From contig NZ_JAQZCH010000001.1 of assembly GCF_028737325.1 (NCBI RefSeq), forward strand, positions 1,284,732 to 1,348,731: DNA of 64,000 bases. Reading direction: 5' to 3'. This document shows positions 10,341 to 16,000 of this stretch, one piece after another. The notes under the pieces were generated by a model, which did not search any database, was not told the DNA's origin, and worked only from the letters and a program-made list of their open reading frames with translations. Source of the DNA: Microbacterium thalli. GTDB taxonomy: Bacteria > Actinomycetota > Actinomycetes > Actinomycetales > Microbacteriaceae. The stretch's first letter is position 1. Each line of letters starts with the position of its first letter. The position numbers were made by a program, and so were the translations under genes.

Positions 10341-11615
10341 ATGACGATGCACGATCGTTCCCTCATCCAGCACACCGGCTGGGGTTTCTTCCCCATCGCC
10401 TTCATCGCCCGCCTCCCCTTCGCCATGATGGTGGTCGGCGTGCTCACCCTCGTCGTCTCGGCGACCGACTCGGTCGGTCTCGGCGGGCTCACCTCGGCCG
10501 CCGTCGGCATCGGCGTGGTCATCGCCGGGCCCGTCATCGGCGACGCCGTCGACCGCTTCGGCCAGCGTCGTGTGCTCGTGCCGCTCGGCATCGCCAACGG
10601 CATCCTGCTCGCTCTGTTCCCCGTCGTGGTGACCGCGGGTCTTCCCGACCCCGTGATCCTCGCCGCGGGGGCCGCGATCGGCCTGAGCGCACCGCAGGCC
10701 GCGGCGATGTCGCGCAGCCGCCTCATGGGCATCATCCGCATCCGGATCGGAGCCGACCACCGCCCGCGCACCCTCTCGCGCGTCATGTCATACGAGTCCG
10801 CCGCCGATGAGACGGCGTTCGTCATCGGGCCGTTCCTGGTCGGCATCCTCGCGGCGGCCATCGCCCCCTGGGCGCCGATCGCCATCGCGGCGGCGTTGAG
10901 CCTCGTGTTCGTGACCGCCTTCGCCCTGCACCCGAGCGGTCGGATCGCCGCGGCGCTGCCGGCGGGCGAGGTCGAGGAGCGCGCGCCGATGTCGGAAGTG
11001 CTGCGCGGTCGCATCCTCGTGCTCGTCGCCGCGACGTTCGGCGTCGGACTGTTCTTCGGCGCGACCCTGACGTCGTTGACGGCGTTCGCGCGAACGGCGG
11101 GAGAGGGCGTCGAAGCGGGCCTGCTGTACGGGCTCATGGGCATCGGCTCCGCCGCGCTGGCGTTGGCGGTCGTGCTGCTGCCGACCCGGTTCGCCCTGCG
11201 GCATCGGTGGCTGGTGTTCGCCGCCGTGCTCGCCGTCTCGGCCGGCGGCTATGCGGCCGCGGACTCGCTGGGTCTCGTCGTGGTCATGCTGCTGCTCATG
11301 GGCCTGGGTGTCGGACCGACCCTCGTCACACTCTTCAGCATCGCCGGTCACCGTTCGCCGGTCGGCCGCTCCGCGACGACGATGACCCTGCTCGGGTCGG
11401 CGCTGACGCTGGCTCAGGCACTCGCGTCGGCCGTCACCGGGGCGATCGCCGAAGCGGGCGATGTCCGCCTCGCGATGCTGCTGCCGACCATTGCGGGTGT
11501 GCTCGTGCTGACGCTGGGCGTCGTCAACCTCATCATCGAGCGCCGCGAGCGCGCCGCTCGCGCTGCCGCGGGGCCGGTCGCGCCCGAGCCGACCCCGGTG
11601 CTCGCCGACCGGTGA
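10341..11615 (+). CDS. MFS transporter
   Basis: A 424-residue protein with about twelve membrane helices, typical major facilitator length. The loop after helix 2 (GDAVDRFGQRRVL) is the MFS motif A region. The family couples small-molecule export or uptake to proton movement. The ATG at 10341 follows CCCGGAGGCGCGC, a clear ribosome-binding site. It stands alone between the aminopeptidase and the convergent chromate transporter. A possible 15-codon ORF (10277-10324) precedes it in the leader. The substrate is not identifiable; the Ala/Gly-rich late helices look like drug-type exporters. Confidence 0.85.
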   Translation: MTMHDRSLIQHTGWGFFPIAFIARLPFAMMVVGVLTLVVSATDSVGLGGLTSAAVGIGVVIAGPVIGDAVDRFGQRRVLVPLGIANGILLALFPVVVTAGLPDPVILAAGAAIGLSAPQAAAMSRSRLMGIIRIRIGADHRPRTLSRVMSYESAADETAFVIGPFLVGILAAAIAPWAPIAIAAALSLVFVTAFALHPSGRIAAALPAGEVEERAPMSEVLRGRILVLVAATFGVGLFFGATLTSLTAFARTAGEGVEAGLLYGLMGIGSAALALAVVLLPTRFALRHRWLVFAAVLAVSAGGYAAADSLGLVVVMLLLMGLGVGPTLVTLFSIAGHRSPVGRSATTMTLLGSALTLAQALASAVTGAIAEAGDVRLAMLLPTIAGVLVLTLGVVNLIIERRERAARAAAGPVAPEPTPVLADR

Positions 11616-11630
11616 GCCGACCCGGCCCGG

Positions 11631-12842
11631 TCAGAGCCAGGACGACGCGGCGCCCACGGCGGCCCCGAGGACGACGACCGCCCACGCCGGGCAGCGCCAG
11701 AGCGTGAGCAGCCCGAAGCAGACGAGAGCGAGCGCGAACTGGTCGACCCGGGTGACCGAGGTCGTGAACACCGGGTCGTAGAGCGCGGCGCCGAGGATGC
11801 CGACCACCGCAGCGCTTGCACCCCGAACGGCCCCCGTGGCTCGAGGTCGGCGGCGGATCGCGGCCCAGAGGGGAAGCGCGCCGAGCAGGAGCAGGAAGCC
11901 GGGCAGGAAGATGCCCGCAAGCGCGATGGCCGCACCCGCGACGCCTCCCGGCCCGACGTCGGAGAGGGCGCCGAGGTACGCGGCGAACGCGAACAGCGGC
12001 CCCGGCAGCGCCTGCGCCGCGCCGTATCCGGCGAGGAACGTCTCGGCGTCGACCCACCCCGGCCCGACGAGGGCGCTGTCGAGCAGGGGCAGCACCACGT
12101 GACCGCCGCCGAAGACCAGAGCGCCCGAGCGCAGGAACGCATCGAACAGGGCGACCGCCTCGACGCCGCTGGTCGCGGCCACGATCGGGCTCGCGACGAG
12201 CAGGACCGCGAGCGCGACGAGAGCGCCGACCCCGATCCGCATCCCCGCCGTCGGCAGCGCATCGGGCGCCGCGACCGCGGATGCCGAGGCCGGATGGCCG
12301 TCGTTCGATCCTGTCTCGCGCAGCCAGACCGCCCCGGCGATCGCTGCCAGGGCGATCGCCACGAGCTGCGCGTACGGTCCGCCCACCAGCAGGACGCCCA
12401 CGGCTGCGGCGATCGCGATCGAGCCTCGCGGGCGGTCGGGCGCGAGGGACCGCGCCATGCCCCAGACGGCGTGCGCGACGACCGCGACCGCGACGACCTT
12501 CAACCCGTCGATGACGCCGCCGGCGAGCGGGCCCGACACGGCGTCGACGCTCGCCGCCGCCCAGACCATGAGGGCAGCCGAGGGCAGCGTGAACGCGGCG
12601 AAGGCCGCGAGCGCCCCGGCCAGTCCGGCGCGGCGCAGTCCGATGGCGAAACCGACCTGACTCGACGCGGGGCCGGGCAGGAACTGGCACAGCGCCACCA
12701 GCTCGCCGTAGGCGTCGTCGCTGATCCACCGGCGGCGGGTCACGAACTCGTCGCGGAAGTAGCCGAGGTGCGCGACGGGCCCGCCGAACGACGTCAGTCC
12801 CAGTCGCAAGAACACCGCGGCGACGGCGGCGAGGTTCGACAC
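11631..12842 (-). CDS. chrA: Chromate transporter ChrA (two-domain form)
   Basis: A 403-residue protein with two homologous CHR halves. The signature FLRLGLTSFGGPVAHLGYFRDEFV opens the first half. SGALVFGGGHVVLPLL opens the second, with QALPGPLFAFAAYLG completing the pattern. Long-chain ChrA proteins extrude chromate, probably using sulfate or proton gradients. The GTG at 12842 gives the family-like start 12 residues before the signature. The longer upstream reading frame has no conserved sequence and would cover the divergent promoter. Directly upstream are two GTTCACC repeats spaced 11 nt apart. Chromate as the real substrate is not proven. Confidence 0.85.
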   Translation of the reverse strand: MSNLAAVAAVFLRLGLTSFGGPVAHLGYFRDEFVTRRRWISDDAYGELVALCQFLPGPASSQVGFAIGLRRAGLAGALAAFAAFTLPSAALMVWAAASVDAVSGPLAGGVIDGLKVVAVAVVAHAVWGMARSLAPDRPRGSIAIAAAVGVLLVGGPYAQLVAIALAAIAGAVWLRETGSNDGHPASASAVAAPDALPTAGMRIGVGALVALAVLLVASPIVAATSGVEAVALFDAFLRSGALVFGGGHVVLPLLDSALVGPGWVDAETFLAGYGAAQALPGPLFAFAAYLGALSDVGPGGVAGAAIALAGIFLPGFLLLLGALPLWAAIRRRPRATGAVRGASAAVVGILGAALYDPVFTTSVTRVDQFALALVCFGLLTLWRCPAWAVVVLGAAVGAASSWL

Positions 12843-12863
12843 GGCGCCAGCGCACCATCCGCG

Positions 12864-12881
12864 GGTGAACGCGCGGTGAAC
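12864..12881 (-). promoter_or_regulatory. Candidate PHO box (GTTCACC direct repeats, 11-nt period)
   Basis: On the minus strand, two exact GTTCACC heptamers (12881-12875 and 12870-12864) recur with 11-nt period, as in the direct-repeat units bound by PhoP in Streptomyces. They lie in the divergent region between chrA and the secreted phosphoesterase. A third copy sits on the plus strand at 12950-12956. Confidence 0.5.
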
Positions 12882-12949
12882 GCCGCGCGCGAGTAGCACA
12901 CCGAGGTGACCGACCGCGTCACCGGCCGGCAACCGGGGTGCGCCCCCGC

Positions 12950-12981
12950 GTTCACCCGCCGCTGGTGCGCCGTGCCTAGCC
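12950..12981 (+). promoter_or_regulatory. Promoter region of the secreted phosphoesterase
   Basis: A TAGCCT hexamer at 12976-12981 is the likely -10. A single GTTCACC at 12950-12956 overlaps the expected -35 position, where PhoP-type activators commonly bind. The leader would be about 30 nt. Confidence 0.4.
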
Positions 12982-13017
12982 TCGGCGGCATCCCTCCCTG
13001 CACCGAAGGTGGTCGTC

Positions 13018-16000
13018 ATGCCCGCTGAGCGCCCGCGCGCCCGTTTTCTCACCGTCGCGTTGACGGCGACCCTGGCGACGGGAGTCGGTGCGGCGTTCGC
13101 TGCGCCGGCGTTCGCCGCGCCCGGGGACGCGACGCCTGCCGCCGCTGCCCCCGCGCTCGGGTCGCTCGTCGTGACCGAGATCGCCCCCGACAACGTCGGC
13201 GCAGACGATTACGAGTACTTCGAGGTGCACAACCCGACCGGCCGTGACATCGATCTCGCCGCCGACGGGTTCTCGTTCGCCTACACGTACGTCGACGGCG
13301 CCGACCGTGGGCGCGATGTGGCGCTGTCGATCGCCGAGCCCGTCGTCATCCCGGCCGGTGGCACCGTCGTTCTCTGGCTCAGCTATGCAACCGGCAGCGT
13401 CGATTCCTTCGCCCGCTCGGTCGACGACTTCCGGGCGCACACGGGCGCGACACCCGACACGACGGTCGTTCGCGTGACGGGGCAGCCCGGTATGGCCAAC
13501 AGTGCGCCGCGCGGCATCCGGATCCTGCAGAACGACGCGATCGTCGGCTGGTCGACGTACGGCCGGACGGCCGCGGCCGCGGGACAGTCGGCGCACTTCC
13601 GTCTCCCCGCCGAGCGCACCGACGGAGGCATGGACATCCTCGTCGAGCCGGCGCCGGCGAGCCCGGGGGTCGTGGCACCCGAGGCCGTGACCCCGCCCGC
13701 CGGCGAGCCCGGTGAGCCGGAGTTCGACCCGCAGCCCGATCCGTCGGTCGTCACCGCGCCGCTGCAGATCACCGAGGTGCTTCCCGACTCGGCGAACGTG
13801 TCTGGCTTGGACGGATTCGAGTTCATCGAGGTCTACAACGCCAGCAGCGATCCGGTCAGCTTCTCGGACTACACGATCGACTACCTGTACCCCGTCGAGG
13901 GCACGTCCAGCACCTGGCCGGCGGCGCCGAGCGGCGTCGTGATCCCGGGCGGCGAGACGCTCGTGTTCTGGATCAAGAACGGCGCCAACGACGCGCTGAC
14001 GGCGGCCGACTTCAACGCGCACTTCGCCTCGAACCTCGTGCTGGGCGACGACCTCGTCGAGATCTCCTCCGCCGGCATGGCCAACGGCTCGCCGCGCGGC
14101 ATCGCGGTCGAGACCAACACCGGTCGCCACGTCAGCACCGCGATGTACAACCTCGACGGCGCCGACGACACCGTCGCCGATCAGGGCATCCGTTACACCG
14201 TCGGCGACGACCTCGCGACGCAGCGGATCGTCGATCTCGCGCCCGCGACGCCGGGCGCCGTGCAGGCCGACCAGGTTCCCGCCGGTCTCATGATCGTCGC
14301 TCCGGACACGCAGGCACCGACCATCGTCGATCGCACCGCCGGCGAGATCCAGCCCGGCACCGACTTCACCATCACCGCGACGGTGACCGACGACGTCCTC
14401 GCGCGGACGGTCAGCCTGACCCTCGCGAACGACGTCGACACCGTGAGCTCGCCGGTGCGCGCCAACCTGCTCGACGCCGGGGACGGGACGGTGTCGTTCG
14501 TCGTGAACGCGGCCGACCTCATCGGGAAGACCTGGTACGAGTACACCCTCACCGCCAGCGATGGAACGAACCGTGCCTCGACCGAGACCCGGCGCGTGCC
14601 CGTCGCCGGTGCGAACACCGACCCGGTGCGCCTGAACCTCGAGGACGGCCAGTTCGTCGCCGGCACCACCGAGGTCGTGGCCGCCGGCGACGCGTACCCG
14701 AGCCCGATCGACCTGTCGATCGACGGTGCGGCGATCGACACCGAGCCCGCGCTCGAGGCCGAGCCGCGGTTCGTGTTCGAGACGACCAACGTCAACTACT
14801 ACTTCAAGAACGGCGTGCGCATCGGCGACGACGTGCTCAACATCTTCGAGATCGGCACGGAGGGGTGGGAGACGATCATCACGCCGGTCCCGCTCGACTA
14901 CGTCGTGCAGGGCGACGAGCTCGTCGTCAGCGTCTGGGCGGGCACGAAGAAGGCCCCCGAGATCGACCTCGCCGAGAACAACGACGACTTCGAGATCCGT
15001 GGCCTGCGTCTCGTGCTGCCCGACGGCCGCACGTTGACCCCGACCGGCTACGACGACCCGGCGGCGGTCCTCCGGATGGGTGACAGCGTCACCGCCACCG
15101 GTGCGCCCTCGGGCAAGCTCGACTTCTACGAGGCGCGCTTCGCGCTGCCCGACGACGCCTTCGCCGCCGTCGCGGCGCAGTGGGACACCACCGAGCACGC
15201 GGATGGTCCCGCCGTGGTCACCGCCACCGATGGCGCCGCAGCGGTCTCGCGGACCGTCGTCGTCGACAACACCGCTCCCGTCGTGGCATCGCAGATCGTC
15301 GACGGCACCGCCTACCAGGGGCCGATCGTCATCGACGCCGAGGTGGCCGATGCGGGGTCCGGCGTCGCCGAGGTCGTGGCGCGCCTCGACGGCGCCGAGA
15401 TCGCCCTGCCGTACGAGACGTCGTCGGTCGATCTCGCGGCGGGCGACCACGAGGTCGAGATCACCGCGACCGATCACGCGGGCAACGCCGACACCTGGAC
15501 GGCGGCGTTCACCACTTACGACGAGCAGCCGAGCGCCGGCGCGCTCGCGCCCGCCGAGGGGGCGGAGGTACCCGCCGGTGACGTCACGCTGCAGGCCAAG
15601 GTCGAGGACCCGACCGGCGACGTGCTCGACGTGGCCTTCCTCGAGGGGCGCCGCCTCGACCTGTCGGACGGCGACATCTCCGTGCAGTCCGGCACGGTGC
15701 AGGACGCCCGCGCGGTCGACCGCGCCCCGGCCGAGCCGCTGACCACCGACCAGCTGCGCACGCTGGCCGCGGTCGACGGCGTGGCCGAGCAGATCTCCAG
15801 CGATCGGGCTTTCCCGTACCAGCTCTTCGACGTCGCGGTCACCGACGCCGACGCGGGCGCGGATGTCCGCTCGACGTGGTCGGGCCGCGCGAACACGGGC
15901 GCGACGGTCGTGCTCTACGCCCAGCGTGCCGATGAGTCCGGCTGGGACGAGGTCGACCGGCACGTGGCGGCGTCCGATGACGAAGCGTTCTCGCTCGATG

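Follow-up and report, generated by a model that had tools for sequence, protein, structure and literature searches.

Divergent PHO-type operators probably bring chrA, together with a secreted phosphoesterase gene, under phosphate-starvation control in Microbacterium

The PHO box of Streptomyces is described as having a layout of seven plus four nucleotides, in which the heptamer GTTCACC is the most conserved part (available portion of PMC4415409). At pstS there are two such units, and pitH2 and glpQ have four or five that vary in quality; the glpQ1 and glpQ2 genes of S. coelicolor encode secreted phosphate scavengers and carry multi-unit operators (available portion of PMC7866108). Separately, CHR-family genes have been tied to phosphate deficiency in cyanobacteria. 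According to the parts of the reports at hand, chrA of Synechococcus PCC 7002 is upregulated on phosphate deprivation, and knocking it out lowers the growth rate to 64% of wild type when phosphate is deficient and to 98.8% in standard phosphate (PMC11358556); ChrA is carried by marine picocyanobacteria of low-phosphate waters (PMC10119275, PMC7522525); and samples from the Mediterranean and Bermuda are enriched in a chromate-transporter cluster of Prochlorococcus, as they are in phoA, phoR and an arsenite pump (PMC3686209). According to their available portions, two chromate studies of Microbacterium found no chrA in the isolates examined (PMC4647564, PMC6336093), and within the literature searched, itself available in part, no report of a PHO box at an actinobacterial or Microbacterium chrA was found.

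The window, a 64,000-nt stretch of the Microbacterium thalli genome, carries chrA and a gene for a secreted phosphoesterase in divergent orientation (Table 1), and this locus recurs in the Microbacterium relatives L141 and L142, the latter M. radiodurans. The phosphoesterase ends in LAATG, a hydrophobic stretch and a basic tail (read by eye), a tail that looks sorting-signal-like; the profile matches included no sorting-signal model. Two genes past the phosphoesterase lies a PEP-mutase-family gene (PF13714; 18781-19560, plus strand), whose N-terminal part also adjoins chrA at two other loci, L064 and L226.

Table 1. Genes and putative regulatory elements of the chrA/phosphoesterase locus, with the further GTTCACC-N4-GTTCACC doublets of the same genome
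Feature	Position	Strand	Remarks
MFS transporter gene	10341..11615	+	convergent neighbour of chrA; synteny marker
chrA, CHR-family transporter gene	11631..12842	-	matches PF02417 (two stretches) and TIGR00937; the GTG at 12842 is the probable start; transcript probably leaderless
-10-like TGCGCT (inferred promoter element)	12849..12854	-	+27 from chrA unit 1; 7/9 fetched clade members
chrA putative PHO box, unit 2, GTTCACC	12864..12870	-	11 nt after unit 1
chrA putative PHO box, unit 1, GTTCACC	12875..12881	-	first base 39 nt upstream of the chrA start codon
Phosphoesterase putative PHO operator, unit 1, CGTCACC	12917..12923	+	invariant in 7/7 genomes
Phosphoesterase putative operator, unit 2, GGCAACC	12928..12934	+	-10 follows at 49 nt, the spacing of pstS promoters
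Third register position, TGCGCCC	12939..12945	+	not conserved, probably no unit
Phosphoesterase putative operator, last unit, GTTCACC	12950..12956	+	first 6 bases invariant in 7/7 genomes
-10-like TAGCCT, putative phosphoesterase promoter	12977..12982	+	TANNNT kept in 7/7 genomes
Secreted calcineurin-like phosphoesterase gene, 1507 aa	13018..17541	+	Metallophos, LTD; ATG at 13018
Doublet place L002			exact; pstS-like gene (TIGR00975 at 198 bits, cut-off 205), then two permease genes and one ATPase gene
Doublet place L004			one mismatch; second PstS-family gene, TIGR02136 above cut-off
Doublet place L003			GGTCACC-N4-GTTCACC; precedes ABC solute-binding protein gene (PF13343)
Doublet place L005			inside a frame open across all 3018 bases fetched

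The initial annotation had pointed to a minus-strand GTTCACC pair with an exact 11-nt period, which is present as described, and to a third, plus-strand copy. Single heptamers are common, with 19 in the window and 781 genome-wide against 98 for the reversed word, so the third copy by itself means little. This excess is also what lends some colour to the suggestion that the repeats are ordinary -35 elements, or a coincidence of coding sequence or base composition. The doublet behaves differently: by pattern searches and selected stretches, on which all genome-wide figures are based, exact GTTCACC-N4-GTTCACC occurs at two places in the 3.09-Mb genome, the window and a pstS-like gene (L002), where about 0.1 would be expected from the heptamer frequency, and with at most one mismatch at five places, the reversed control giving none. 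Since the doublet is rare and strand-asymmetric, the units are better conserved than their linkers, and the single copy at 12950 stands 20 nt from the -10, both of these origins are highly improbable.

Several details were observed at the other places in this genome. The intergenic region of the L002 pstS-like gene (G000:C5:1482741-1485758) repeats the window's arrangement of a doublet and a single copy, with a lone opposite-strand GTTCACC shortly 5' of a divergent ATG (at about 1440-1610). At L003/L140 (G000:C5:1147000-1154500) the solute-binding protein gene is followed by a permease-like gene, making this a candidate Pho-regulated organophosphate or phosphonate importer; the sole NCBIfam hint for the solute-binding protein, 2-aminoethylphosphonate, falls far below cut-off. 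Around the second PstS-family gene with its one-mismatch doublet (L139, G000:C7:519000-528000) there are a permease-like gene and, close by, ArsR-like and arsenate-reductase-like genes (named by eye). A genome regulon list built from GKTCACC units with two mismatches was dropped as too noisy, with 128 matches against 20 for the reversed control.

Across the genus, the exact doublet has 105 matches in 98 of 119 genomes (reversed control 0), one per genome in all but seven of the carriers. Among 30 fetched loci, 28 lie upstream of pstS, and every one of these 28 has a TANNNT beginning at +49, counted from the first base of unit 1; the remaining two (L096, L097) have no pstS downstream. Because the fetched doublets so largely precede pstS, we infer that GTTCACC-N4-GTTCACC is the PHO box of Microbacterium. 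It shares its 11-nt head-to-tail units and GTTCACC heptamer with the Streptomyces box (available portion of PMC4415409) and differs in that the putative Microbacterium box also occurs at chrA. The likeness to PhoP direct-repeat units that had first been noticed thus holds well, the same doublet marking pstS both in this genome and in the genus. In most pstS leaders (L093-L122) a hairpin-like segment resembling CCCTGCACCGGG (judged by eye and from column counts) lies at about +61 to +78 from the doublet, just past the expected start site.

A matching regulatory pair is encoded in the genome. A phoU gene (TIGR02135 above cut-off) adjoins a PhoR-like HisKA/HATPase kinase and an OmpR-type regulator, the last two making up the PhoR-PhoP-type pair looked for. 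The best solved relative of the regulator in the PDB is RegX3 (2oqr, E 3e-99); in NCBIfam, the YycF and MtrA models rank over PhoB, all below their cut-offs, and the PhoR and PhoB models match the kinase and regulator below cut-offs only. The PHO-box reading of the repeats is supported by these observations together, and the repeats are very probably a binding site for the phosphate-starvation regulator.

The intergenic region was aligned over seven genomes with the same chrA/phosphoesterase divergence (own, L221-L225 and L227; L222 and L223 near-identical). The GTTCACC at 12950 is in 11-nt register with the conserved CGTCACC at 12917 and GGCAACC at 12928 and is therefore the last unit of an array. 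The initial annotation had placed this copy at the -35 region of the phosphoesterase promoter; the copy is there, on the plus strand, and its TTCACC stands 20 nt before the -10-like TAGCCT. Usual -35/-10 spacing is 16-18 nt, so it is no ordinary -35 element. The unit at 12928 reads GGTCACC in L221, GGACACC in L222-L225 and GGCCATC in L227. In columns 12843-12982, the outer phosphoesterase units are invariant at 13 of 14 positions and the chrA units at 12 of 14, compared with 36 of the remaining 112 columns (p=1.5e-5 and p=1.6e-4, respectively, both optimistic because the sequences are related), which bears out the heptamer conservation in orthologous promoters proposed at the outset as a check. 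What had been taken as a single operator is thus made up of PHO-type repeats, as stated, and resolves into two divergent operators, 12864-12881 for chrA and 12917/12928/12950 for the phosphoesterase. In the phosphoesterase leader (12985-13013), GCGGCATCCC and TGCACCGAAGGTGG are invariant in 7/7 genomes.

The phosphoesterase resembles S. coelicolor glpQ1/glpQ2 in joining a secreted scavenger to a multi-unit operator, and differs in that the window enzyme is a Metallophos/LTD surface protein and no glycerophosphodiester phosphodiesterase (available portion of PMC7866108). Its orthologues at 20 further loci (L034-L053; weaker partial matches L054-L062 excluded) show no chrA in the upstream DNA retrieved (up to 1.5 kb). 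All 16 orthologues tested carry a forward G[TG]TCA[CT]C no more than 160 nt from the start, against 0 of 16 in reverse and 6.75% in shuffles; starts were picked by eye, L036, L038, L052 and L053 were excluded as cut or unclear in their start, and L034 and L035 are near-identical there. A -10 at +27, which suits the window's phosphoesterase, was rejected as a general rule, as it fits few distant orthologues (L040); a -10 would fit at +48 in L039 and L041 and at +49 from the second unit in L034/L035, with nothing clear in the others. In three distant orthologues (L046, L047, L048) an in-frame GTG follows the first base of GTTCACC by 37 nt, which differs by 2 nt from the chrA spacing, and short-leader PHO promoters may recur there.

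The orientation of the doublet toward chrA had also been recognized in the initial annotation, where chrA was regarded as an unexpected regulon member. Its position, less than 150 nt from the start of the phosphoesterase, the obvious phosphate gene here, could suggest that the doublet serves that gene alone, from afar, with chrA a bystander. Yet L064 and L226 retain the doublet at an unchanged distance from chrA with no phosphoesterase at the locus and a CobW_C-domain gene 5' of chrA instead, so that the chrA box is independent of its neighbour, and phosphoesterase orthologues without adjacent chrA have forward units of their own; a bystander role is accordingly very unlikely. The window's chrA clade (SH-aLRT 100) keeps the doublet in 9 of 9 fetched members, at 13-14 of 14 and +39 to an in-frame start. 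The doublet does face chrA, and the gene appears to be a conserved target in its own right.

The sampling of chrA was extended to the genus, where the gene is present in 35 of 119 and 95 of 366 genomes; 51 loci were fetched. When the 110 nt upstream of 49 of them were scored against GTTCACC-N4-GTTCACC, 13 reached 13-14 of 14 in the forward direction, none in reverse and 1 of 4900 shuffles. The two loci read separately were L068, with a weak ATTCACC-N4-GTTTCAC and a GTG at +39, and L082, with no box. A relaxed box, defined like the +39 rule after inspection of the sequences, is found at 37 of the 51 fetched loci; in 36 of these 37, an in-frame ATG (23) or GTG (13) begins at exactly +39 when counted from the first base of unit 1, L086 being the sole exception. 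A box at every chrA of the genus was not found, 14 of the 51 fetched loci lacking one (L238 among the unboxed, with 12 of 14 in the doublet scoring), and the box/no-box state requires three changes on a quick tree. Besides the window's clade, a second lineage of 24 rows is boxed throughout, mostly as [AG]TTCACC-N4-GTTT[CG]C[CT], and a third (L072, L240) carries GTTCACC-N4-GTTCA[GA]C.

The second lineage, the largest of those boxed, counts against the PHO-box reading, because its unit 2 is mostly GTTTCCC, no standard PHO unit. A different regulator, chrA-specific or GlnR/MtrA-like, might own the chrA box, its likeness to a PHO box being convergent: unit 2 is of GTTT type in 20 of 49 chrA loci, and chrA promoters make up 9 of the 14 genus-wide matches to GTTCACC-N4-GTTTCCC (reversed control 1), the other five (L124, L127, L129, L135, L136) showing no clear phosphate genes by eye. 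Against this, the window's clade and the rows of GTTCAGC, GTTCAAC and GTTCTCC type are near-canonical in the same frame, and the phosphoesterase orthologue L050 has a GTTTCCC unit beside its GTTCACC, which leaves another regulator unlikely. With the doublet kept clade-wide and related boxes found elsewhere at the same spacing, chrA is probably a conserved Pho-regulon member in Microbacterium and likely a true target.

The units stand 27 and 16 nt from the -10 at chrA, 60, 49 and 27 nt at the window phosphoesterase, and 49 and 38 nt at pstS; every one of these distances equals 16 plus a multiple of 11, placing the units on one helix face, and the distant phosphoesterase orthologues L039 and L041 deviate from the series by one base. 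The chrA geometry is unlike that of pstS, the presumed -10 following its box at 27 rather than 49 nt. The +27 hexamer of the window's clade (TGCGCT in 7 of 9, else TGAGGT or TGGGAT) lies 6 nt before the start codon and probably represents a leaderless -10 with the doublet in the -35 place, a position that fits class-II activation by a PhoB-type regulator. In the 24-row lineage this hexamer mostly reads.AGGA., perhaps a Shine-Dalgarno sequence rather than a -10, so leaderlessness is the firmer proposal for the window's clade. The same ambiguity bears on whether a genuine PhoP site might repress chrA at low phosphate: the box is near the start codon, and if the +27 element of the GTTTCCC lineage is a Shine-Dalgarno sequence the true promoter could lie farther upstream. 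The TGCGCT of the window's clade is not Shine-Dalgarno-like and, at 6 nt from the start codon in 7 of 9 members, fits a leaderless -10. Moreover, Synechococcus chrA rises, not falls, without phosphate (available portion of PMC11358556). Repression is for these reasons improbable.

Taking the observed repeats, their conservation, the start-codon spacing, the association with pstS and the phoU/phoR/phoP-like genes together, the preferred reading, to which we assign a probability of roughly three in four, is that the intergenic region holds two divergent phosphate-starvation promoters under a PhoP/RegX3-type regulator, chrA included. When phosphate is scarce, the response regulator would be phosphorylated and bind the head-to-tail 11-nt units. 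On the phosphoesterase side, it would activate from the 12917/12928/12950 array, arranged like a pstS promoter; on the chrA side, bound to the 12875/12864 doublet in place of a -35 element, it would activate a probably leaderless transcript. ChrA may then help at low phosphate by moving phosphate itself, or a competing oxyanion that becomes troublesome once phosphate uptake is derepressed.

To our knowledge, CHR-family proteins have no clear role where chromate is absent. The window gene shares its protein family (PF02417, TIGR00937 above cut-off) with chromate-resistance chrA and differs in lying under a PHO-type box, and chromate resistance is not implied. With the cyanobacterial genes it has in common a CHR-family transporter tied to phosphate deficiency; the two belong to different phyla, and a promoter box at cyanobacterial chrA is not discussed in the available portions (PMC11358556, PMC10119275, PMC7522525, PMC3686209). 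Upstream of the 79 named chrA loci whose upstream DNA could be used, E. coli-type pho boxes gave 6 forward and 1 reverse match at a score of at least 12, and 10 each at a score of at least 11; being suggestive only, they are not counted as evidence. Four of the six forward matches are Halomonadaceae chrA (L158, L159, L212, L214; 12/14, relaxed). It is conceivable, at rather less than even odds, that CHR-family transporters recur in the phosphate-starvation response of different phyla (Microbacterium, marine and coastal cyanobacteria and perhaps Halomonadaceae), each phylum recruiting them via its own PhoB/PhoP-type box, and that their everyday job is to handle phosphate or an oxyanion linked to it, with chromate exported as a side activity.

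For Pho-regulon annotation in Microbacterium, these data offer a genus-specific PHO-box model, namely a 7-4-7 layout with the pstS -10 at +49 and the chrA start at +39. They also advise caution in taking every chrA for a chromate-resistance marker. The PHO-type promoter, along with the cyanobacterial knock-out and metagenome evidence, leads to a concrete and cheap test of ChrA at low phosphate without chromate, and the conserved box at chrA hints that CHR-type pumps matter in phosphate starvation.
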